A stretch of 47,639 bases of DNA from Nanobdellota archaeon (GTDB taxonomy: Archaea; Nanobdellota; Nanobdellia; Parvarchaeales; Parvarchaeaceae), in the NCBI GenBank assembly GCA_021797085.1, contig JAKAAG010000006.1:1-47639 (forward strand). The letters are read 5' to 3'. Every line of letters begins with the position of its first letter. Position 1 is the first letter of the stretch. The notes beneath the pieces were generated by a model. The model had not been told where the DNA came from and did no database searches. It saw nothing but the letters and a program-made list of their open reading frames with translations. Shown piece by piece: positions 15,173 through 46,927 of the stretch. Made by a program: the position numbers and the translations under genes.

Positions 15173-17479
15173 ATGAAAATAAGTCATCTGGCAGTTATTT
15201 TGCTCTTATTATCCATGCTTTCAATATCATTGGCTCATGCACAGCCGGGGATACCTCCCCCATCTACATCTACTTCAAGCGCATCATTTCTTTCGGGGCT
15301 ATCTTCTGGAAATTCCTACATTTATGCAGGATTCTTTGCAATAGTGATGTTTATAATATTCGCGATAGCGTTGGATAGGACACAGCTTTCTAGCGGGAGA
15401 ATTGCAATTTCCTTCATCTTTGCACTTGTAACCTTCTTTCTTCTTTATAGTGATAATACTTTGCTGCATTTCTTCCTAAACACCTTTATAGTTCTGGCAT
15501 TTATAGCATTGATATTGGGGATGCTTGCCGCAGTTAAGTCTCCTAGGTCTATAAGGTTGATTGGCCTGGTTGTTGCGCTTTTTCTTATTATAATCTTATT
15601 TGAAAATGACACAGGTCTTACCAATTCTGTAAACTCCATACTGCATATTAACATACTTAGTATACTCCCGCTTGTATTTGGAATAATTACAGTAGCCGTC
15701 TTCATAATTCTGCTCCTAAGAGGAGTAAAAACTCACAGCAATATGGTTTTAAGGGCCATCCTGCTTTTCATAGTCTTTCTCTTGATTGCATTGCTAATAC
15801 CTGGGTTTGCAGGCTTCCTTTTCAGTCCAATAGTTTTGCTTCCATTGTTTGTTGCCATACTGCTAGTGATATTTTTGGTTAGAAGGGCAAGCATACATGG
15901 CCCGAAGCGCTCAAAAGAGGATAAACAAGCAGAAAAAGAGGCAAAGGTGCAGCAGAAAGCGCTTTCTTCAATAGGAAAAAGAAAGCAGGCAAATTCTTCT
16001 ACTCTTCAAGAGTATAGGGATCTGTTGAAAAAGGGAAACCTTACTCCACAAGAGCAGTTGAGGATGGCCGAGCTAAAAAACAAACTGGCAAATGAAGCCT
16101 GGAAGAACGTTGCAGATAGGACAAAGCTTACGCAGGTTCAATACTCTAAGAAACAACTTTCAAATAATAGGGATTTGCAGAAACTAACCGGCTTTTTCTC
16201 AAGAGATCAGGCTTTAAAGAATTTAAAATCAAATGCCCAAAGTAATTACAAGCTGTCCTGGTCGCAAAAAAGAGCATTGAAGAAAGAGCAGAAAGACCTT
16301 AACAAGAAAAATACCTTTATAAGCAACACTGGAAATAACCAGGCCGGAGATCTTTTTGATTTAGCAAACGCAGCAAACCAAGGTGCGCTAGGTAAAGTGC
16401 CTTCAAAAAGAGAAGCAAAGAAAATGTATGAGCGTAGGCTTAAAAACGAGGGCACTATTAAAAGGTCATTTTTTGAGAGAAGAAAGGAAGCAAAAGAGCT
16501 GCAAAAATCCAGGGAAGAAGCAGCAAAGAACAATGAACTTTTCCAGATGGCAAACGCAGTAAACAAAGGTGGTTTGGGTATACCTCCCACCCAAGGTTTA
16601 GCAAAGAGGATGTTCAGAAGAAGAACATCAAAAGAAAGCAGACAACAGGAAGTTTTGGATTTGCTTAAGCAGCGTAATTCTTACTTAGATCCCAATCTTA
16701 ATTTATCGGATTCTACGAGATCAAAGCGCGTCAAGGAAATAGATAAAAAACTTAAGAAGATATCAGATAAAATAGATCCAAATTCTATAGTTCCAAAATC
16801 CCCTGAGCAGATAAGGCAGGAAAATCTTAGAAATCAACAGGCACAGGAAAGAAGACAAGAAATGAGCCAGGATCAAATGCTTGGAGAAGCACAATTGGAA
16901 GCCGCAAGGAGACATGCAGAACAAGAAAGACAAGAGAAGGAAAAAGAAGCTGCTTTAAAACAAGCCAGAAACCCTACAGATGAGATTGGAGAGCAGATTG
17001 ATGACTTTAATGAATTCCTTAAAAAGCAATATCCTAAAGCTCCTCCTGAAAAGGAAGTTAGGAATCCTACAGATGAGATTGGAGAGCAGATTGATGACTT
17101 TAATGAATTCCTTAAAAAGCAATATCCTAAAGCTCCTCCTGAAAAGGAAGTTAAGAATCTTACACAAGAGAATGACCTCCTTAAAAAACAGTCTCCAGAA
17201 AACACCCCTACTACTTCTGTTGGGCCCAACAGTGCATTTGACAAGAGATTGAAACCTCCTTTATGGTTCTCCCATAAATCTCCAGTGGATGAAAACGGAA
17301 AATTGGATGTGCAAATGCAGAACCAAATAGAAGTAAATGGTTTAATGGACAGGCGTGAAAATTTGGTTGGCTTAATAAACTCTGGCAAACTATCTGGAAG
17401 ACAGCTTAAGGACGCACAAAATGAATTAAATAGGATTGATTACCGGCTGAAAAAATACGGCAGGGACATACATAGATAA
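15173..17479 (+). CDS. multi-pass membrane protein with long charged coiled-coil-like tail and internal repeats
   Basis: Signal peptide, about 8 hydrophobic segments, then Lys/Gln/Glu-rich tail with an almost identical 31-aa tandem repeat. Confidence 0.8.
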   Translation: MKISHLAVILLLLSMLSISLAHAQPGIPPPSTSTSSASFLSGLSSGNSYIYAGFFAIVMFIIFAIALDRTQLSSGRIAISFIFALVTFFLLYSDNTLLHFFLNTFIVLAFIALILGMLAAVKSPRSIRLIGLVVALFLIIILFENDTGLTNSVNSILHINILSILPLVFGIITVAVFIILLLRGVKTHSNMVLRAILLFIVFLLIALLIPGFAGFLFSPIVLLPLFVAILLVIFLVRRASIHGPKRSKEDKQAEKEAKVQQKALSSIGKRKQANSSTLQEYRDLLKKGNLTPQEQLRMAELKNKLANEAWKNVADRTKLTQVQYSKKQLSNNRDLQKLTGFFSRDQALKNLKSNAQSNYKLSWSQKRALKKEQKDLNKKNTFISNTGNNQAGDLFDLANAANQGALGKVPSKREAKKMYERRLKNEGTIKRSFFERRKEAKELQKSREEAAKNNELFQMANAVNKGGLGIPPTQGLAKRMFRRRTSKESRQQEVLDLLKQRNSYLDPNLNLSDSTRSKRVKEIDKKLKKISDKIDPNSIVPKSPEQIRQENLRNQQAQERRQEMSQDQMLGEAQLEAARRHAEQERQEKEKEAALKQARNPTDEIGEQIDDFNEFLKKQYPKAPPEKEVRNPTDEIGEQIDDFNEFLKKQYPKAPPEKEVKNLTQENDLLKKQSPENTPTTSVGPNSAFDKRLKPPLWFSHKSPVDENGKLDVQMQNQIEVNGLMDRRENLVGLINSGKLSGRQLKDAQNELNRIDYRLKKYGRDIHR
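16967..17152 (+). repeat. two tandem 93-bp coding repeats
   Basis: RNPTDEIGEQIDDFNEFLKKQYPKAPPEKEV twice (16967-17059, 17060-17152); nucleotide differences seen only in the first codons (aga aac / agg aat). Confidence 0.95.
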
Positions 17480-18279: not shown

Positions 18280-18816
18280 TCAATTGCCCGTACTTTCTAT
18301 CATCCTTATCTCAGTTGCTCTTGTGGGGTATATCTTGCTTAATTTCTTATGAAGTTGGTTCTGTACCTTTCCAGCAAGAACGTCCAAAATTAATTCCTTT
18401 AAGTTCTTCTTTTCGGCTAAATTGTCTATGAATTCATTAGCTTCTGCTCTTACAAATTTTTTGTATTTGTTCTCTGCCTTGTTTATTATTATCAATGCCT
18501 TTATTGCATATTCCTTTTCGTCTATTTTTACCTTTCTCACTACTTCTATTTTTGAAGAATTATGCCTTACCATCCTGCCGATTTGTTCTCTTGAAAGCAC
18601 AAGTGATTCAAGCTGCGCGTTTGCCGTGTTTTCGGTTGAAGAGATCAATCTAAAGCCAAGTTTAAAGCCAGGCTTTGTCTTTATCTCGGGCAGATTGTTT
18701 GCATTTACAAGTAACACTCTTTTTGGTATATTAGCTTCATTTCCGTAGACGCTGCCTATCTCTGCGTTGTCAAAATCAACAGCTTTTACCTTGTACCAAG
18801 AATTGGGCTGATTCAT
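18280..18816 (-). CDS. rps3ae: 30S ribosomal protein eS1 (S3Ae)
   Basis: 'SWYKVKAVDFDNAEIGSVYG', 'LVLSREQIGRMVRHNSSKIEVVRKV', 'LSKIYPTRATEIRMIES'. Confidence 0.88.
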   Translation of the reverse strand: MNQPNSWYKVKAVDFDNAEIGSVYGNEANIPKRVLLVNANNLPEIKTKPGFKLGFRLISSTENTANAQLESLVLSREQIGRMVRHNSSKIEVVRKVKIDEKEYAIKALIIINKAENKYKKFVRAEANEFIDNLAEKKNLKELILDVLAGKVQNQLHKKLSKIYPTRATEIRMIESTGN

Positions 18817-19238
18817 ATCTTTACTACCAACCTTGCAGATTCAAGTGAATATTCATAATCTTTAGGCAATACTTTGGTCTGTTTATAGTATTTAATGAGC
18901 TTTTTTATCCGGTTCTCAAGAACAACCAGGCTTCTTATGGAATGTTTGTCTTTCTTCATCTTATCAACATGCATGTGCAGCTTTACTGCCTTTTTATAGA
19001 GAGCTATTAAGTCTTCTGGCAATTGCTCTTGTATCCCTCTGCTTTTGAGTATAGAGCTTATGCTTTTCTTTGTAATGTCCTTTACAGACGGTATTCCATA
19101 CTGATCTTTCAACACAGTGCCTATTTCTGATTTTGTAAGGCCCTTCTGTGATTTGTTTATTATGAGCTGTTCTACTTCCTCCTGCTTGTAATTAAGCCAG
19201 TGAGGCACGAACCTGTTCTTAACATTAATAACTTTCAT
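18813..19238 (-). CDS. rps15: 30S ribosomal protein uS15
   Basis: 'GLTKSEIGTVLKDQYGIPSVKDITKKSI', 'LYKKAVKLHMHVDKMKKDKHSIRSLVVLENRIKKLIKYYK'. Confidence 0.92.
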   Translation of the reverse strand: MKVINVKNRFVPHWLNYKQEEVEQLIINKSQKGLTKSEIGTVLKDQYGIPSVKDITKKSISSILKSRGIQEQLPEDLIALYKKAVKLHMHVDKMKKDKHSIRSLVVLENRIKKLIKYYKQTKVLPKDYEYSLESARLVVKI

Positions 19239-19821
19239 TATATCTCCTCCTTTCTTCTATATCTTTAAGATGAGTATCTATTCCTTTAAATTCTTTTCTA
19301 ATTTTGGATTTATAACCCTGTAGGAAATATGAGTATGCTTCTTTGTATAATTCGTTGTGCTTTGATTTCAGCGCATTTTTAAACAGGAATATGTCGCTTG
19401 CAAAATCCTCGTCTTTTGATGAATGATAACTTAGTCCGAAATCGATAATATACAGTTTTTTATCTCTTCTTATAATGTTTGCGGTAGTAAGGTCCCCATG
19501 TATCACACCTAGGTTATGCATTTCTGCAACTGCAATGCCTACCTCCTTTGCATCGTTGGCTGAAAATTTCTCTGCCAGTCGTATTCCTTCTATTTTTTCC
19601 ATCCAGATCTCCTTCTTGTCTTCTTTGTATTTTAAAGGCTTTGGAACGTTTAATCCACCTTTGTATAGAAACTGCATTATATTGAATTCTGCCTTGCTTC
19701 GGCTTTTTCTGAGTTTCTCATCTATCTCCTTTATCCTGTATCTCTTTTTTATCCTTTTTTTTATTATTGTGCCTTTTTCCTCATATACAACAGCTTCAGA
19801 TCCAACAGCAAGCGTTTTCAT
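19225..19821 (-). CDS. bud32: KEOPS kinase Bud32 (stand-alone)
   Basis: 'AVGSEAVVYEEKGTIIKKRIKKRYRIKEIDEKLRKSRSKAE', 'GVIHGDLTTANIIRRDKKLYIIDFGLSYHS'. Confidence 0.92.
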   Translation of the reverse strand: MKTLAVGSEAVVYEEKGTIIKKRIKKRYRIKEIDEKLRKSRSKAEFNIMQFLYKGGLNVPKPLKYKEDKKEIWMEKIEGIRLAEKFSANDAKEVGIAVAEMHNLGVIHGDLTTANIIRRDKKLYIIDFGLSYHSSKDEDFASDIFLFKNALKSKHNELYKEAYSYFLQGYKSKIRKEFKGIDTHLKDIEERRRYNESY

Positions 19822-20513
19822 GTTTTTATGAAGACTCTGTCTTCGTCCTCCAATATGTGCGAAAGAGCAACCCTCTGGCCCTGGAATTTCGCGCTTTTGC
19901 CGAATACTACTGCATAAGCGTTTTTTTCGGTCTTAAGGTGCAGTTTTTTAACCAAGTCTTTGACGGTTTCACCCCTTTGCATTGCAACGGCATCCTTTGA
20001 GTTTTCAGTGTAAACCCCTATGACTCCAAAGTCTCTAAGTGCTTTTTCCACGTCTATCTTTTCACTTATTATTTGGAAGCTACAGTATCTGTCTATTTTT
20101 TCCTTTGATATTATTATTTCACTTTGTATTAGCAGATCCTTGTTTTTTTCCGGGTCTTTAATTGACAGCATCTGAACCTGCACATTGTTTATCTTTACTA
20201 TGCCGTAAAGCAGGTTGTCTATTCTTGTTAGATTAAACAGCTTTAGTACGTTTTCATCGCTGAACCCCACTAAAGAAACTCTCGGCCATCTCTTTCTTAT
20301 TGCGGTTGCCTTGTGAATTAACGGCTTTCTGCTTGCCTCCTTTTTTAGAAGGGAAAGCCTTCTTTTCAATGATCCGAACTCTCTGTCTGTTCCCTTGTGC
20401 TTTGGCAGAATAACCATCATCCTTTTTAGTATTCTTTCCTTCTCTTCAAGGTCCTTTTCCTTGCTGTACCTTTCCTCTAGTTCATAATACTCCTGTGGTG
20501 CATTCATTGGCAT
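19818..20513 (-). CDS. DRG-like protein with degenerate G domain and C-terminal TGS domain (pseudo-GTPase)
   Basis: N-term 'MPMNAPQEYYELEERYSKEKDLEEKERILKRMMVILPKHKGT' and C-term TGS 'VAMQRGETVKDLVKKLHLKTEKNAYAVVFGKSAKFQGQRVALSHILEDEDRVFI' match the archaeal DRG pattern; P-loop position reads 'VGFSDENVLKLFNLT'. Confidence 0.75.
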   Translation of the reverse strand: MPMNAPQEYYELEERYSKEKDLEEKERILKRMMVILPKHKGTDREFGSLKRRLSLLKKEASRKPLIHKATAIRKRWPRVSLVGFSDENVLKLFNLTRIDNLLYGIVKINNVQVQMLSIKDPEKNKDLLIQSEIIISKEKIDRYCSFQIISEKIDVEKALRDFGVIGVYTENSKDAVAMQRGETVKDLVKKLHLKTEKNAYAVVFGKSAKFQGQRVALSHILEDEDRVFIKT

Positions 20514-20515
20514 AT

Positions 20516-21478
20516 CTACCTGTATTTTATCTCCACCGTATCGGTCCTAAATCTTGGTTTTATTGCAAGGTCTTTTTGCACGTAATCTCTCATAAGGTAA
20601 CCTGTGTAAGCAATCATTGCGCCGTTGTCACCGGCAAATTCCATAGGTATTGCCTTAAATGAAGCATTTCTGTCCTTGCACATCTTATATCCCATTTCAT
20701 TTAGCCTTTTGTTTGCTGCAACCCCTCCAGTTATTACTAAACTGTCTTTTAAGCAGTATGACATTGCTCTCTCGCTGGCTTCTATAAGCATTGAAAAGAT
20801 AGTTTCCTGCAGAGAGAACGATATATCTTCAATCTTTTCCTTGCCTATCAATCTAGATACAAACGTTTCTATTCCGGAAAAACTCACATCCATGCCTTTT
20901 ATGCTGTATGGCATTTCGATGTAGTGTCTGCTTTTCCTTGCTAGTTCCTCTATCTTGGGGCCTGCAGGAAACGGTATATTTAATCTTCTCCCCACTTTGT
21001 CTATTAGGTTTCCCACTCCTATATCCTGCGTTTCACCGAATACTATGTATGTGCCATTGTAATAAGTTATTATTTGCGTGTTGCCGCCACTTACGTACAG
21101 CATAACCGGGTCGTTTAATTTGGTGTAAAGCCTTGCTATTTCAAGATGGGCTATGCAGTGGTTTACCCCTATCAGTTTTTTATTGTATTTCTTTGATAAA
21201 AAAGTTGAAAGCTGCGCTCCCACTTTAAGAGAGGGTATTATTCCTGGGCCTTGGGAAAATGCGAATAAGTCTATATCCCTTAATTTCAGCCCGCTTTTAT
21301 CAAGTGCTCTTTTAAGTATCTCAGGGGCAAATTTGAAGTGATGCTGTGCCGCTTCCCTAGGTATTATTCCTCCCGAGGCAGGCTTAAGAGTGTCTCTTTC
21401 ATTTGCTATTATCTTTTCATCTTCAGAAATGCCAACACCAAACGTGTGCGCAGTGCTTTCTATACCCAGAGTATACAT
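20516..21478 (-). CDS. kae1: KEOPS subunit Kae1 (tRNA t6A threonylcarbamoyltransferase)
   Basis: 'LGIESTAHTFGVGI', 'NHCIAHLEIARLYT', 'LYVSGGNTQII', 'ITGGVAANKRLNEM', 'FAGDNGAMIAYTG'. Confidence 0.96.
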   Translation of the reverse strand: MYTLGIESTAHTFGVGISEDEKIIANERDTLKPASGGIIPREAAQHHFKFAPEILKRALDKSGLKLRDIDLFAFSQGPGIIPSLKVGAQLSTFLSKKYNKKLIGVNHCIAHLEIARLYTKLNDPVMLYVSGGNTQIITYYNGTYIVFGETQDIGVGNLIDKVGRRLNIPFPAGPKIEELARKSRHYIEMPYSIKGMDVSFSGIETFVSRLIGKEKIEDISFSLQETIFSMLIEASERAMSYCLKDSLVITGGVAANKRLNEMGYKMCKDRNASFKAIPMEFAGDNGAMIAYTGYLMRDYVQKDLAIKPRFRTDTVEIKYR

Positions 21479-21503: not shown

Positions 21504-21689
21504 TTAATTTTTATCCTTTCTTTTAAATTCAGTGTAACCGCATCTTCCGCACGTGTATCTATTATCGTGTTCAGCAAGGAAGGTACCCTCACCGCACTTA
21601 GGACATGTACGGTTGACTCTAGTTATAGACTCTCCTTCTATCTTGTACATTTTCCAGATTTCACTTTTTTTCTGCTTCTTCTTTTCCAT
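21504..21689 (-). CDS. rps27ae: 30S ribosomal protein eS31 (S27ae)
   Basis: '[27 protein letters not shown]' zinc ribbon, synteny with eS24/Spt4. Confidence 0.88.
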
Positions 21690-21963
21690 TCTTTATACCA
21701 TTCTTTTCAAGTATGTATTTCGGCAGTATCTTTTTTGCCATCTCCTCATTTTTGTAAACGTGTGCTATCCCCTTTGCTTCATTTTTTCCGTATGTGCTTT
21801 TTATAGTGTAAATAACAAGAAAACCATTTTTTCCTTCTTCTTCCAAGGCTTTTCTAGTTTCATCTATCTTTGCAGGCTCCCCGTTCTTTAATTTTGCAGT
21901 GAAGTTTATTATTTCCCTGTCAAGGTACTTATCATCTATCTTAGAGTTTATTTTAACTTCCAT
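21661..21963 (-). CDS. rps24e: 30S ribosomal protein eS24
   Basis: '[14 protein letters not shown]'-type region, '[26 protein letters not shown]'; synteny. Confidence 0.9.
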
Positions 21964-21965
21964 AT

Positions 21966-22151
21966 TTACTCAACAGAAATGGCGTACTTGCCGTTCTTTG
22001 TAATGTTCATTGCATTTGCTATAGCAGATTTTTCGCTGTCAGAGATTATAACAACGCCTTTCCATTTAAGTGAAAGGTCCTCGCTACCACACATAGGGCA
22101 TTTTCTTTCTTCAGTCAGAAAATTGCAGACCCTGCATGCTTTTAATGCCAT
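21966..22151 (-). CDS. spt4: transcription elongation factor Spt4
   Basis: 'ALKACRVCNFLTEERKCPMCGSEDLSLKWKGVVIISDSEKSAIANAMNITKNGKYAI'. Confidence 0.93.
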   Translation of the reverse strand: MALKACRVCNFLTEERKCPMCGSEDLSLKWKGVVIISDSEKSAIANAMNITKNGKYAISVE

Positions 22152-22153
22152 GA

Positions 22154-22687
22154 TTATTTCTTAGCAGCCTCCTTTTTCTTTGAGCCCATTTTTCCAAGGC
22201 CAGGTGAACGCATTGTTAATCCCACTTTCATTATCCCTTTAGTGCTCACTGCTATTATGCTTGCTATTACAGTGTCACCTGTTTTTATCGTCATTTTTGT
22301 CCTTCTGCCAGTAAGCGCGTTTTTGGAGAAATCAACAAAGTCATCCATAGTTTGTGAAATATGGACCAATCCGTCTATCGGGCCTATGTTTACGATTGCC
22401 CCTATCTCGCTTACTTCCACAACTTGCCCCTTAACAGTTTCGTGTAAAGTAGGCAGGTAAGCCAGCATCCTGAATATCGTATCGTAGTATATTGAAGCGT
22501 CATTTGGTATTATTATCCCCTCTTCTATGCTGTCAATGCCTATTAATCCAATGAGTAAAGCCTTGTCCTCTATTATCTTTCCTATGTAGTTTTTTCTTAT
22601 TATTTCCGTAGTAGCTTCTTTCCTGTCTTCTTCCAGCTTGCTCGGCTCAACTCTTACCTTATCCCTTAACGTTATAATTTCGTACAT
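22154..22687 (-). CDS. rpo7: RNA polymerase subunit Rpo7 (RpoE')
   Basis: 'MYEIITLRDKVRVEPSKL', S1-domain 'VKGQVVEVSEIGAIVNIGPIDGLVHISQTMDD', 'KVGLTMRSPGLGKM'. Confidence 0.95.
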   Translation of the reverse strand: MYEIITLRDKVRVEPSKLEEDRKEATTEIIRKNYIGKIIEDKALLIGLIGIDSIEEGIIIPNDASIYYDTIFRMLAYLPTLHETVKGQVVEVSEIGAIVNIGPIDGLVHISQTMDDFVDFSKNALTGRRTKMTIKTGDTVIASIIAVSTKGIMKVGLTMRSPGLGKMGSKKKEAAKK

Positions 22688-22792: not shown

Positions 22793-23704
22793 ATGGAAAG
22801 CAAATCTATTCTTGTTATAGGGGCGGGGGCAGTAGGTTCAGCTTTTCTTGAAAGTTCCCAGGGAATCTTTAAAAAAGTTGGAATTTTTGATGGAGATATA
22901 ATATCAAAAAGTAATTTAATAACACAGCCTTTTTATCAGGGCTGTGACTTCTCCTCCCCTGTTTCAAAGGTGGCCTTTTCAGTAAACAAACTCAATTCTT
23001 TGAACAGCGGCACAGAATACAAAGGATATGAAAGGTATTTCACTGAAAAAGACTTCGAAACGATGAAAGAATACGATTTGATAGCGGATTTTACCGACAA
23101 TGTTAACAGTAGGAAAATAATAAACGCAGGTTGCGTAAAATACGGGAAGGCAGCAGTTTTTGTATCATTGAATGAAAAGGAAGCATCGCTGTTTTTTTAC
23201 AAGGGAAGCGCATGTTTCAACTGCCTGTTTAGGAATTCAATCGGTCATGTAAAAGAAGGCTGTGAATCAATCGTTTCAGCGCCTGAAAATGAGTTTATTT
23301 CGTTTTTGAAGGAAAACATAATCGAATTTGCTTTAAATAAAATAGAGGGCGGCAGGATAGTGCTATTTAACCTTTCAAACAAGAGGGTTTTAAGCAGCAT
23401 GCTTAAGAAGGACATGGAATGCGAGGTATGCGTTAGACACACAATGAAAAAGTTTGAAGACGGATTCTTGCAAGTATGCTCATCAGGCATAAAATTTTCA
23501 TATGGGAAGAAGCTGAACTTAAAAGAATTAAGCAGCATGCTTTCCGGCGGCCGTTTGTACGGAGAGTATCTTATTTTCAACGAGAATAATAGATCAATAC
23601 TTGTTTCTTCGGATGGCGATTTTCTGTTTACTGGCTACACAAGAGAGGAAGCTGGAAAGCTAATAACTGTGCTTGTTTCTCAAGACCCTGAAAAGAAGGA
23701 ATAA
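22793..23704 (+). CDS. divergent ThiF/MoeB/E1-like adenylyltransferase-fold protein
   Basis: 'ILVIGAGAVGSAFLES', 'IFDGDIISKSNLITQPFY', 'DLIADFTDNVNSRKIINAGCVKYGKAAVFVSL', CFNC and CEVC zinc ligand pairs. Confidence 0.78.
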   Translation: MESKSILVIGAGAVGSAFLESSQGIFKKVGIFDGDIISKSNLITQPFYQGCDFSSPVSKVAFSVNKLNSLNSGTEYKGYERYFTEKDFETMKEYDLIADFTDNVNSRKIINAGCVKYGKAAVFVSLNEKEASLFFYKGSACFNCLFRNSIGHVKEGCESIVSAPENEFISFLKENIIEFALNKIEGGRIVLFNLSNKRVLSSMLKKDMECEVCVRHTMKKFEDGFLQVCSSGIKFSYGKKLNLKELSSMLSGGRLYGEYLIFNENNRSILVSSDGDFLFTGYTREEAGKLITVLVSQDPEKKE

Positions 23705-41635: not shown

Positions 41636-44600
41636 ATGCAAATTAAAACTGGCAAAAAGGGACAAACAGTTGTAGAATCCTTGATGACCTATGGTTGGAT
41701 GATTGTTCTTGTAGCAGCAGTTTTAATTGTTGTTTTTCTTCTAGGGTTATTTTCTCCATTACATTTTATTTCACCTTCTTCAACAATAAGCGGATTTACA
41801 GGTGTAAAAGTAACTGCCGTAATTGCAAATTACAGTTATATGGAATTTTATCTTACAAATTCTCTTTCGGTTTCAGTCAATTTAAACAAATTCTCCTTGC
41901 TTTATAACAATACGAGGTTATCAAATGTAAGCTGCCAGTATTTGACACTATCACCAGGTCAGAATTCAATATGCTTTACAAAATTAAAGCTTGCAAACAC
42001 CCGGGACACAGTTTCATTGGGAATCACATTTGCCATTTCAAGTGTTATAAACGCTTCTTCAAATGGTACAATGTCCTTTGTTCCTACAAATATAAATCTG
42101 CCATTGCCTTCCATTATAACCGAATTCAGTGAGGAGGGCCTTCCAACTGGCTCTCAATGGTGGGTGGATTTCAAAGGTGCTAATCATACCTCTACAGGCA
42201 CTGAAATACTGTTTGCCTCCGTCCCAGGTAACTATTCCTTCATCGTTGGCAACACATCATTTAACGGCTGTACATTCACCGCTCTTCCTTCTTCTGGTTA
42301 TTCTGAAGCAGGCCTTCTAAACAATATAATATTCATTAATTCCTGTGCGGCTACCTTCATAGAGAAAGAGTTGCCCCTAGGCACAAAGTGGAAAGTAGAA
42401 TATGCGGGCGTTAATCAGTCTTCAACTACCAATTTATTGGTGTTTACAAATGAAAAAAGAGGCACATACCCATATTCAGTTAACGATTCTATAGTGGCGG
42501 GCTGTATATACCAACCTTCACCTTCCTCTGGATCTTTGGCCGTAGGGCAATACCAATATATACGTTTTCTAGGAGAATGTACAACTACATTTACTGAAAG
42601 TGGTTTGCCTTCTGGTTACAAATGGAATATGTCATTTGATGGGCTTGGAAAGGAAAATACCACAAGTAATATCTATTATTTCGGCTCTCCTGGAAATTAT
42701 TCTTATTCCATTAGCACGTTGTCTAATTCTTCTTCTTACCCTGTTTGTAGCACAACATACACTCCCTCACCTTCTTCTAATACAGTGGCGGCAGGTTCCA
42801 CGGTCTTAATTACTTTTTCAGCAGAAACAACATGTACAACTACATTTACTGAAAGTGGTTTGCCTTCTGGTTATCAATGGGATGTTACATATAATTCGAT
42901 ACCAAAATCTGCAGATGCACCTGCCGATATACCGTTTACAACAAAATCGAGCGGCAGCAGCATACCTACTTATCCATACTCCATTCCATACCTTTCAAAT
43001 TCCTCTTCGACATTGGATTGTAAAACAACATACGCCCCATCTCCATCATCTGGGTCAGCAGAAGCAGGTACTACGGTTCCGATTAGTTTTACTGATTTCA
43101 CAGTATGTATAACAACCTTTACTGAAACGGGATTAGGCTCAGGAACAGTATGGTCTGTAACTTATAATGGAAATACTAATAGTGGCACTGCACCATCAGA
43201 TATAACATTTAAAACAAATACTACTGGTGCAGGCATTCCAGCTTATTCCTATACTATAAATAAAATTGCTCCAACTACTTCTTCAACTTTAGACTGCACA
43301 ACGGCTGCTACTCCTACCCCTTCCTCCGGAACTAATTTACCCGCAGGCTCAACTGTAGCGGTTTCTTTCGCAGCAGAAACAACATGCATAACAACATTTG
43401 ATGAGTCGAACCTCCCAACCAATTATCTTTGGAATGTTACTTTTAACAACACTAAGAACTATTCTACCTCTACGAGCATGGAGTTTACGACCGTTAACTC
43501 TGGGAGCACGATACCTTCTCTGCCTTACTCCGTTCCAACTTTAACATCAACAAGTGTAGAATGGAACTTCGGTACTTCAAGTTATCAGGGGGATATATAC
43601 CAAGGGATGCCTACAGAAGCGTTTCCATCATCTTTGAGTGATTTGAACAACAATGTGGTGGCATGCGGTTCACCATATGATTCCCAAGGTTATACTGCCG
43701 TAGGTTATATGTACTTTACCTCTTCAATTACGGTAACTATAACTTCAGATGACGCTATGGCAGTTTTCTATACCCCAGTTGGGTCTAATTCCTGGACAAG
43801 TGTCTTCGGGAGTAATGCTTGGCATGGAGAAGGGGCGACACAGTATGGGCCAACAACAGTTTCAGTAACACCAGGTTGGTATGAAGTTGCAGTGGACTGG
43901 ACAAATATCTGTGGCCCAGGTATGAGTGCCTTTGAGATAAATGGTGCTTACATGTTATCTAGCCAATTTAATGTAATTGGGTGGACTCCCTCTAATGATA
44001 TACAATTATTACCCTATTCAGATGTTTCAACGGATCCTGCTAGCCCTTCAGATATTACAGTAGAGCAGACGGGTTCATGGTCTCATGAATTCAATGGTTA
44101 CTTTACGTATACTTACACACCATCACCATCCTCTAATACAGTATCGGCCGGCTCTACAAATTCAATTTCATATTCTACAAGCGGTTCATCAACAACAGAA
44201 TTCTATGAAACTAACTTACCTTCTTCAGCTTCAAGTTGGTCTGTGTCATACGATAATGGCGCAGCTAGTGGCTCAAACTCCGCAGGTTCTCCTATAACAC
44301 TTTCATTAGGCAGTCAATCATCACAGAATTCATATCCTGCAACTGCAACAGCAGACACCTCTACCGGCTTAGCATGTACTGCATCCGCTTCTGTTGAAGA
44401 AGGCACTACTTATACGTTTACAAATTGGTTGTGCAGACTACCAGTCTATATAGATAATACGCAGGGCACTGCAACGCCTGCACCCTTCCAGCAAGAGTTG
44501 ATAGTTAATTCTCAAACATACTCTCAGTACGAGGCTTCAAATCTAGATAATGTGGAGTTTACTTATGCTAATGGAACAATTATACCTTCTTGGCTTGAAT

Positions 44601-46927
44601 CTGGAAACTCCAGTACAGCACCTTCAACCGTTTATTGGCTTAAGATAGGGGGAGGAATACCAGCAAACTCGGAAATGGAGATATACATTAATTTTGCACT
44701 TCCGACATCAACTAATGTTTTCAATACAGTGAATGTGGGAGAGGCTCCGCAGCTTTCTCCAAATTATGCAGAGTATGATGACGGAGCTGATGTATTCAAT
44801 GTCTACTCCAACTTCGCCGGCACAAGCCTGCCAAGTGATTTCACCTCTTATGTTGGAGACGCCACACTGTCAGTGGATAATGGCCTTCACCTACAAGTAG
44901 CAAACAACGGCTGCTCCAGTACATGGGCAGGTATAATCTACAACAACCCTATAGACTCAGCAGATTCTATAGTGGAAACCTATAGCTCGGGAACCAGAGT
45001 TGCAGGACCTGAAGATGTTGGATTGTATACAGGAAATAGCGACACTGCAGGAGGATATGCAGGAGTGGCCGATACTTGGGGATGGGGATACGGAACAATA
45101 AGCGGTGGATACGGAAACATAGGCAATCCATTTGACATAAGCTCAGGTAGCGGAGTGGCAAGCATTTACTGGATAGGAAATGGAAACGAAGGCATCGGAT
45201 GGAATTACAACTTTGTCTCATCAACAAACACGAATGAAGGGTGGAGCAGCAGCTTATATGCATCTATACAGACTGGGGAGTGCTCTCCTAATGCAAACAT
45301 GGTTTATTACTGGTTTAGGGTCAGGGCATACCCTCCAAATGGGGTTATGCCATATGCATGGGTCCAGCCAGTTTTGCCATCAGGTATTAGTGATTACACA
45401 CCATTAACAATATCTAACACACAATCCTCTGCAACTTCTACTCCTTTCCAGCAGTTGGTAACTATAAATCCTTCAAGTCCATTATGGTCTTATATAAATC
45501 ATGACGGCCAGTCAACAGGTCAGAACTTGGAATTTATGTATGGGAATGGTACTATAATTCCAAGTTGGTTAGAATCTAATTTAACTTATATTTCACCAGG
45601 GTATAGTTCTTCTACGGGTTCTACCTCTGCATCGACGACAGTACCAAGTGATAATTATTACTTATGTGCAGGTGGCGATGGTAATGGGGCTTTAAGTTCA
45701 TATTCTTGGACCAACTTGGCTTCTACGACTTATACAAGTCTGGGATATCAAAGTTCACCGACCTGCAGCGATTCATCTAGCAGCTCTGATATAGTTGTTG
45801 GCGGCGTTTCTTTAAATCAAAATTACATTAGTGACCAAGTAAATACCTATAATTCAGTATCATCTTTTAGCTGGCAATTCACAGTTCCATCAAATGCAGG
45901 TTATACACTTTTAGTTGGATCATGTGGTTGGTTTGAATGCAGTTCTATATCTTTACCGGCTGGTTGCAGCCAGTTGTTCTTTACTCATGGTGGAGACAAC
46001 TATGAAACGGCATTTGCCGCAGCATGTAACCTTAATCCAGGCAGTTACACAGTTTCTGGCAACCTTAATGGTGCTGGGTATGTCAGCATTGGGGCATTTT
46101 ATTTCTATTCTACTTTAAATTATTGGATAAAATTGGGAAGCATACCTGCATATTCAAGCGAACCTATATATATTGGAGTTGCATCCACATCTACAAATCT
46201 ATTCAATGGAAATACAGTTGGAGAAGCACCACAGCTTTCAAGTTCATACGCAGAATACGATAATGGTGCTAATGTATTTAATTACTACACTAACTTTGCC
46301 GGTACAAGCCTTCCTTCGGGATGGAGTAGTATAGTGGATAATGGAGTTGCTTCCGATTCAGTAAGTAATGGATTAACATTAAGCGTTTCAGGTACTAATT
46401 ATCCGTTGATATGGGTATGGTATGATACAGCACTTTCTCCTACAAACGAGATATTTGATGCTTATTCTACATCCACTACTTTCAGTACAGGCGTAGAAAC
46501 AACCGAAGTTGCTCTTTCAACTGACAAATATGGAAATGACTTACCCAGTTGTGGAGTTTATCAGACTTATAACGGATATTCAAACAATCAAGGGTCCTCT
46601 ACTAATTCATGGAACATAGCAGAAGCCGTTGAATCAACAACGTGCGACAGCTCTTCTAGCAGTAGCTTTGGTGGAAACTTTTTAGATGGCGTTTATACTG
46701 TTAGGAGCATAAACTGGCAGGGAACCGGTAATGAAAACGCAGGCATTGATTATACACGTAATAACTGGGATAACACGGTTGTTTCTCAGTCCAATGTTTA
46801 CTTTGGTTTAGGCCTATATGAAGGTAACCAGGGAGATTCGCTTAATTTCAAGGTACAGTGGGCGAGGGAAAGAGCATACCCTCCAAATGGGGTTATGCCA
46901 TCTGTAAATATCGGCCCAGTTGCATAA
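41636..46927 (+). CDS. giant class III signal-peptide (prepilin-like) repeat adhesin
   Basis: 'KTGKKGQTVVESLMTYGWMIVLVAAVLIVVFLLGLFSP' prepilin-type N-terminus; about 7 'TTFTESGLPSG.W.V.Y.G...C.TTYTPSPSSG' repeats; two DUF2341-like modules. Confidence 0.9.
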   Translation: MQIKTGKKGQTVVESLMTYGWMIVLVAAVLIVVFLLGLFSPLHFISPSSTISGFTGVKVTAVIANYSYMEFYLTNSLSVSVNLNKFSLLYNNTRLSNVSCQYLTLSPGQNSICFTKLKLANTRDTVSLGITFAISSVINASSNGTMSFVPTNINLPLPSIITEFSEEGLPTGSQWWVDFKGANHTSTGTEILFASVPGNYSFIVGNTSFNGCTFTALPSSGYSEAGLLNNIIFINSCAATFIEKELPLGTKWKVEYAGVNQSSTTNLLVFTNEKRGTYPYSVNDSIVAGCIYQPSPSSGSLAVGQYQYIRFLGECTTTFTESGLPSGYKWNMSFDGLGKENTTSNIYYFGSPGNYSYSISTLSNSSSYPVCSTTYTPSPSSNTVAAGSTVLITFSAETTCTTTFTESGLPSGYQWDVTYNSIPKSADAPADIPFTTKSSGSSIPTYPYSIPYLSNSSSTLDCKTTYAPSPSSGSAEAGTTVPISFTDFTVCITTFTETGLGSGTVWSVTYNGNTNSGTAPSDITFKTNTTGAGIPAYSYTINKIAPTTSSTLDCTTAATPTPSSGTNLPAGSTVAVSFAAETTCITTFDESNLPTNYLWNVTFNNTKNYSTSTSMEFTTVNSGSTIPSLPYSVPTLTSTSVEWNFGTSSYQGDIYQGMPTEAFPSSLSDLNNNVVACGSPYDSQGYTAVGYMYFTSSITVTITSDDAMAVFYTPVGSNSWTSVFGSNAWHGEGATQYGPTTVSVTPGWYEVAVDWTNICGPGMSAFEINGAYMLSSQFNVIGWTPSNDIQLLPYSDVSTDPASPSDITVEQTGSWSHEFNGYFTYTYTPSPSSNTVSAGSTNSISYSTSGSSTTEFYETNLPSSASSWSVSYDNGAASGSNSAGSPITLSLGSQSSQNSYPATATADTSTGLACTASASVEEGTTYTFTNWLCRLPVYIDNTQGTATPAPFQQELIVNSQTYSQYEASNLDNVEFTYANGTIIPSWLESGNSSTAPSTVYWLKIGGGIPANSEMEIYINFALPTSTNVFNTVNVGEAPQLSPNYAEYDDGADVFNVYSNFAGTSLPSDFTSYVGDATLSVDNGLHLQVANNGCSSTWAGIIYNNPIDSADSIVETYSSGTRVAGPEDVGLYTGNSDTAGGYAGVADTWGWGYGTISGGYGNIGNPFDISSGSGVASIYWIGNGNEGIGWNYNFVSSTNTNEGWSSSLYASIQTGECSPNANMVYYWFRVRAYPPNGVMPYAWVQPVLPSGISDYTPLTISNTQSSATSTPFQQLVTINPSSPLWSYINHDGQSTGQNLEFMYGNGTIIPSWLESNLTYISPGYSSSTGSTSASTTVPSDNYYLCAGGDGNGALSSYSWTNLASTTYTSLGYQSSPTCSDSSSSSDIVVGGVSLNQNYISDQVNTYNSVSSFSWQFTVPSNAGYTLLVGSCGWFECSSISLPAGCSQLFFTHGGDNYETAFAAACNLNPGSYTVSGNLNGAGYVSIGAFYFYSTLNYWIKLGSIPAYSSEPIYIGVASTSTNLFNGNTVGEAPQLSSSYAEYDNGANVFNYYTNFAGTSLPSGWSSIVDNGVASDSVSNGLTLSVSGTNYPLIWVWYDTALSPTNEIFDAYSTSTTFSTGVETTEVALSTDKYGNDLPSCGVYQTYNGYSNNQGSSTNSWNIAEAVESTTCDSSSSSSFGGNFLDGVYTVRSINWQGTGNENAGIDYTRNNWDNTVVSQSNVYFGLGLYEGNQGDSLNFKVQWARERAYPPNGVMPSVNIGPVA
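42113..44434 (+). repeat. about 7 tandem 'FTESGLPSG...C...SPSSG...C' protein repeats
   Basis: Repeat boundaries by eye; 42-nt exact match 'atgtacaactacatttactgaaagtggtttgccttctggtta' at 42577-42618 and 42832-42873. Confidence 0.85.

Follow-up and report, generated by a model that had tools for sequence, protein, structure and literature searches.

DRG proteins are described as GTPases with striking conservation across archaea and eukaryotes. In yeast, Rbg2 occupies the factor site of the ribosome, where its TGS domain contacts 18S rRNA h5/15, its HTH and G domains contact the 60S stalk base, SRL and H89, and its S5D2L insert contacts the A-site tRNA (PMC8040806). Yeast Rbg1 needs its GTPase activity for function and its TGS domain for polysome association, S5D2L being not absolutely essential, and the TGS domain is the main binding site of the Rbg1 partner Tma46 and the route to polysomes (PMC3510508). 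GTPase-derived folds that have lost their nucleotide motifs but are maintained by selection have been described in CENP-M, reported to be unable to bind GTP (PMC4080450), and in the pseudoGTPase domains of p190RhoGAP (PMC5593906); these are eukaryotic relatives of small GTPases, whereas the protein described here is an archaeal protein of the OBG/DRG type with a TGS domain, encoded in a ribosomal operon. Pseudo-GTPases as such are already known, and a DRG-type one in archaea is what is added here; no published description of a DRG pseudo-GTPase, or of the DRG-like family to which this one is assigned below, was found in the open-licence literature searched.

The window, i.e., the whole stretch of 47,639 nucleotides analysed (contig JAKAAG010000006.1 of the Nanobdellota archaeon assembly GCA_021797085.1), carries this ORF in an operon with the order Rpb7-like, Spt4, S24e, S27ae, kae1, ORF, bud32, S15 and S3Ae (Table 1). 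Close relatives identified by sequence are Candidatus Parvarchaeota and Nanoarchaeota MAGs. An earlier reading made from the sequence alone (the sequence-only reading) had proposed 4-nt overlaps with both neighbouring genes, which holds for the bud32 junction, where the ATGA overlap is found in all genus-level relatives examined, and not for the kae1 side, which is a 2-nt gap. A ThiF/E1-like gene (22793-23704, plus strand) is divergent from the rpoE operon, and a similar-looking ORF was noticed by eye at the equivalent site in another genus of the same family (L210 4492-5325, G154). Elsewhere in the window, a plus-strand ORF of 768 aa without a Pfam match (15173-17479) combines a hydrophobic N-terminal part with a near-perfect tandem peptide repeat, NPTDEIGEQIDDFNEFLKKQYPKAPPEKEV, and a plus-strand ORF of 1763 aa (41636-46927) has a sub-threshold DUF2341 match only and is possibly a surface protein.

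Table 1 Location of the DRG-like ORF, its segments and the neighbouring genes in the window
Feature	Position	Strand	Basis
Rpb7-like RNA polymerase subunit (SHS2 + S1)	22154..22687	-	
Spt4 / RpoE2 zinc finger	21966..22151	-	
Ribosomal protein S24e	21661..21963	-	
Ribosomal protein S27ae	21504..21689	-	
kae1, KEOPS t6A transferase, 2 nt upstream of the ORF	20516..21478	-	
Predicted pseudo-GTPase ORF, P-loop-less DRG-like MPxN member, 231 aa	19818..20513	-	ORF, Pfam and alignments
N-terminal helical region, residues 1-62: MPxNAPxxY helix (family-specific) and two helices around LPKHKG	20328..20513	-	
Basic motif HxxxxIRKxWPR, residues 67-78	20280..20315	-	
G1 (former P-loop), residues 82-94, VGFSDENVLKLFN	20232..20270	-	Alignment with motif-bearing relatives
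G3 strand (former), residues 113-121, VQMLSIKDP	20151..20177	-	Alignment with GKS-bearing relatives
TGS domain, residues 165-231, DRG-type AKFQGQRVxLxHxLxDxD motif	19821..20021	-	
ATGA 4-nt overlap, ORF stop / bud32 start	19818..19821	-	
bud32, KEOPS kinase/ATPase	19225..19821	-	
Ribosomal protein S15 (uS15)	18813..19238	-	
Ribosomal protein S3Ae (eS1)	18280..18816	-	

The sole Pfam match of the ORF was the TGS domain (E = 2.7e-8), preserved at the C-terminus as had been proposed, with no Pfam match to a GTPase domain and none to the S5D2L insert (PF16897), whose insertion region is also missing in the alignment. A phmmer search of the PDB led to the TGS domains of yeast Rbg1/Rbg2 and human DRG1, and a profile comparison with the DRG TGS gave E = 1.6e-13. 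The N-terminal helical region, in which the two helices around LPKHKG lie where DRG has its HTH, is the best-conserved stretch of the ORF (segment dN/dS 0.014) and is followed by the basic motif HxxxxIRKxWPR, with seven positions invariant across 20 genus sequences and its IRKRWPR patch nearly invariant genus-wide. Segment 61-78 has a net charge of about +6, and positive charge is found in the N-terminus, linker and TGS. The earlier observation that a protein of this length carries no G1 P-loop, DxPG or NKxD was borne out in both the sequence and the alignment. VGFSDENVLKLFN does align at the P-loop, its coordinates having been one codon off (correctly 20270-20232), while SIKDP or a similar sequence stands in the G3 column and, compared with GKS-bearing relatives, about 14 aa of switch I and 8-11 aa of switch II are deleted.

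The AlphaFold2 model of the protein (12 sequences, no templates) has N-terminal helices at residues 7-18, 22-38 and 43-62 (pLDDT about 76-88) and a small core of alternating strands and helices at residues 78-160 (pLDDT mostly 71-89), the TGS part being poorly predicted with the 12-sequence alignment. The best PDB matches of the model in Foldseek were G domains (Galpha, Nog1 and a Rab) at E about 1e-3 with low TM-scores (0.2-0.25). The model supports, though not strongly, a putative remnant of the G core, small and Rossmann-like, between the N-terminal helices and the TGS domain.

Of the 32 genomes in the window's family (f1), 27 had an intact homologue; 24 of these belong to the window's genus, two to genus g16 and one to genus g17. 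The homologues measured 214-232 aa (231 aa in 21 of the 26 sequences printed), and GK[ST] or a P-loop was found in none of the f1 sequences. Close relatives were searched at this locus for an intact DRG, which would have spoken for a pseudogene or sequencing error, and none was found; since 27 genomes have the P-loop-less form without stops, the ORF is not a product of chance or error. The remaining five f1 genomes gave no match to the ORF and none to kae1, in a search that included no positive genome although the same protein query matched other loci strongly; because both genes are missing together, a missing contig is the likely and simplest cause and there is no evidence for loss. Pairwise dN/dS (Nei-Gojobori) of the ORF against five close relatives was 0.024-0.061, similar to the values of 0.027-0.065 for kae1, where computable, and 0.058-0.166 for bud32. 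Together with the intact orthologues, these low values rule out a pseudogene, frameshift or sequencing error, in agreement with the earlier view of a maintained pseudo-GTPase of, broadly, DRG ancestry. When genus members sharing less than 80% identity were compared, identity was 77% over residues 1-60, 61% in the TGS domain and 41% over residues 79-162, a pattern in which the ends of the protein are conserved while the middle, the former G region, drifts.

In other families of the class, the best matches were proteins of about 265-310 aa with an N-terminus of the form MPxN...PKHKG, a P-loop and a TGS domain; no specific name for them was found, and they are referred to here as the MPxN family. 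A profile of the window's genus matched these GKS-bearing relatives at E = 1.8e-38 over 228 columns (hhalign), and a profile of the relatives searched against the PDB led to yeast Rbg1 at E = 6.1e-51. In the tree, the f1 proteins formed one clade (100/99) nested with relatives from f6, f9, f13 and f14 (98/91), the exact sister group being uncertain given long branches (the f1 stem, L088 and L095), and the ORF fell outside the separate clade of canonical DRG proteins (100/99). These comparisons, full-length homology and nested placement, assign the ORF to the MPxN family and trace its origin to a DRG-like, GKS-bearing protein of 265-310 aa. The attribution to DRG in the sequence-only reading consequently needs narrowing: DRG ancestry stands in the broad sense, but the nearest kin are a separate DRG-like clade, and the N-terminus taken as archaeal DRG, though conserved, marks with its MPxNAPQEYY...PKHKG... 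pattern a distinct family, the canonical DRG in these genomes starting ...KNKATEHHIG... at that place. The f1 proteins share with the GKS-bearing members the MPxN...PKHKG helices, the position of the G core and the TGS domain, and some of those members likewise adjoin bud32, but the P-loop and switches that the relatives retain in part, as GK[ST] and a G3 of mostly ExPA/S, are gone in f1. With canonical DRG and Rbg1-Rbg2 of the OBG family, the ORF has in common the TGS domain, a helical region at the HTH position, an ancestral G domain and the occurrence of a single DRG-like protein per genome; it differs in the lack of G1 GxPxxGK[ST], G3, G4 and S5D2L, in its N-terminus and in its clade. YchF/OLA1, also of the OBG family, shares the OBG-type origin and the C-terminal TGS domain, and the genome encodes it intact in a gene of its own (C33).

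Erosion of the nucleotide motifs was surveyed in 126 homologues outside f1 (121 MPxN-type, four canonical DRG and one other DRG-like protein). GK[ST] was found in 121 of the 126, including 116 of the 121 MPxN-type proteins, while DxPG was limited to the four canonical DRG rows and the one other DRG-like protein. The G3 of MPxN proteins is mostly ExPA or ExPS and not DxPG, and NKxD at G4 is mostly missing, indicating decay at switch II and G4 as a general trait of the MPxN family, with f1 at the extreme end. Loss of the GTPase cycle thus began before the f1 lineage, which in addition lost the P-loop, both switches and 40-80 residues relative to its GKS-bearing relatives. The GKS-bearing MPxN proteins measure about 265-390 aa, and because some members of 369-394 aa retain the inserted region, the shortening is probably derived. 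The P-loop is also damaged elsewhere, in f26 (SPKS/SDKT; L189, L196, L197 and L198) and in f57 (GRS; L134, G196), independent cases that suggest a repeated drift to pseudo-GTPases in the MPxN family. One DRG-like protein of 316 aa (L097, G149:C6:70800-75500) has intact DLPG and NKVD, a different N-terminus and no insert of S5D2L size, in a genome that also encodes a full-length MPxN protein. With G-domain homology, lost nucleotide motifs and selection that keeps the gene, the window ORF is best described as a predicted pseudo-GTPase.

The distribution of the two kinds of protein across the class bears on the place that this one takes in the cell. Of the 234 genomes of the class, 125 encode an MPxN-type protein (matches counted including fragments) and 62 a canonical DRG, called at 388 bits or more and of 350-420 aa with DxPG and an insert of S5D2L size. 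A single genome, G035, has both, against about 33 expected if the two were independent, with kinship between genomes uncorrected. This near mutual exclusion points to occupation of the DRG niche, and we infer that the MPxN family would replace canonical DRG in roughly half of the class. A search for an intact DRG elsewhere in the genome, run with a DRG profile on 28 genomes of the window's genus (98-100% complete ones included), found no canonical DRG, the profile matching only the TGS domain of this ORF and, weakly, YchF-like proteins (the weak matches in G000 are YchF). In the absence of a canonical DRG from the genus, the DRG place is either taken by the window ORF or vacant.

While the ancestry, motif loss, selection and gene order of the ORF are read directly from the comparisons above, its function can be approached only through what such features suggest. 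We favour, as rather probable, a nucleotide-independent scaffold that binds RNA or the ribosome in place of DRG and represents the end state of the MPxN family. Such a protein would bind RNA, most likely in the factor-binding (A-site) region of the ribosome, or possibly tRNA. The N-terminal helices, the TGS domain and the IRKRWPR patch would make the contacts and the former G domain would serve as a passive spacer, so that affinity or partners, rather than GTP hydrolysis, would govern docking and release. RNA or ribosome binding, lack of nucleotide binding and functional substitution for DRG are all presumed here from sequence and from the yeast proteins. A decaying remnant of a dispensable gene would fit the shortened protein, the lost motifs and the fast evolution of the former G part, but is already contradicted by dN/dS of 0.02-0.06, near-constant length, absence of stops and a gene order conserved across three genera, and we regard it as scarcely credible. 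Some pseudo-GTPases retain nucleotide binding, and the G-fold-like core of the model would allow a switch that still works by an unusual binding mode without the Walker A lysine. Deletion or replacement of the P-loop, switch I and switch II, and the lack among genus sequences of any alternative invariant lysine or glycine motif in that region, make a surviving switch very unlikely. Since Rbg1 gains access to polysomes via Tma46 and the TGS domain, conservation of the TGS domain may instead reflect a protein partner, and the main binding site for Tma46 on Rbg1 (PMC3510508), along with the Rpb7-like and Spt4 genes of the operon, could speak for an adaptor that has nothing to do with the ribosome, such as a TGS scaffold for protein-protein contacts in transcription or elsewhere. 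The positive charge of N-terminus, linker and TGS, the ribosomal-protein neighbours and the near mutual exclusion with canonical DRG all argue against this, and we consider it unlikely.

The position between kae1 and bud32 invites a different explanation, in which the protein is an accessory subunit of KEOPS, placed between Kae1 and Bud32 in the complex just as its gene is in the operon. Its TGS domain and basic patch would then hold the tRNA on which t6A is made, a tRNA-binding task left by a missing subunit such as Cgi121. The kae1-ORF-bud32 order is invariant in the 27 f1 loci, with S15 and S3ae next wherever the contig extends, the ORF is coupled to bud32 by ATGA in the genus, and Cgi121 is undetected there. 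In f6 (G027), a GKS-bearing ORF adjoins bud32, followed by S15 and S3ae, and in f9 (G030) the order is Sua5, GKS-bearing ORF and bud32, with kae1 about 4 kb away. The Sua5/YrdC gene there, for step 1 of t6A synthesis (L206:8935-9573, minus strand; Pfam E = 2.2e-53), lies directly upstream of the GKS-bearing relative and forms a t6A cluster in f9. In other f9 genomes bud32 is about 5 kb from the GKS-bearing gene, and the two are unlinked in the other families examined; being limited to a few related families, the bud32 linkage is a sub-clade property, consistent with the tree. The co-conservation with Bud32 and Kae1 that had been suggested is thus real as linkage, but confined to f1, f6 and f9 and set within a broad transcription and translation operon whose rpoE, spt4, S24e, S27ae, S15 and S3Ae genes make it not specific to KEOPS. 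Cgi121 (PF08617) had no match in any of the 234 class genomes, including those whose DRG-like gene is unlinked to KEOPS, while Bud32 was found in 218; as the model also misses Sulfolobus and a divergent Cgi121 is possible, this absence is uninformative and gives no specific gap for the ORF to fill. Pcc1 gave weak matches in many f1 genomes, including the 98-100% complete ones, and none in G000. The ORF itself showed no homology to Kae1, Bud32, Cgi121, Pcc1/Pcc2 or Gon7, with only TGS in Pfam and nothing above cut-off in NCBIfam. Taken with the distance from bud32 in most other families, these results leave the accessory subunit a possible though doubtful reading. Its structural variant, in which a GTP-free, DRG-derived TGS protein belongs to a reduced KEOPS (Kae1, Bud32 and perhaps Pcc1) and couples t6A synthesis to the ribosome or presents the tRNA, seems to us rather doubtful, and any KEOPS-specific role is possible but weak.

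For the scaffold in place of DRG that we prefer, the consequence would be an entire archaeal family dependent on a DRG-like protein unable to act as a canonical GTPase, so that part of the DRG job may be done without GTP. The MPxN family provides an ordered series from translation GTPase to pseudoenzyme, in which G3 and G4 eroded first and the P-loop followed, and docking by the N-terminal and TGS domains becomes testable as a role separable from GTP hydrolysis. The linkage to bud32 and Sua5 in related families gives, in addition, a concrete starting point for connecting DRG-like proteins with t6A synthesis.
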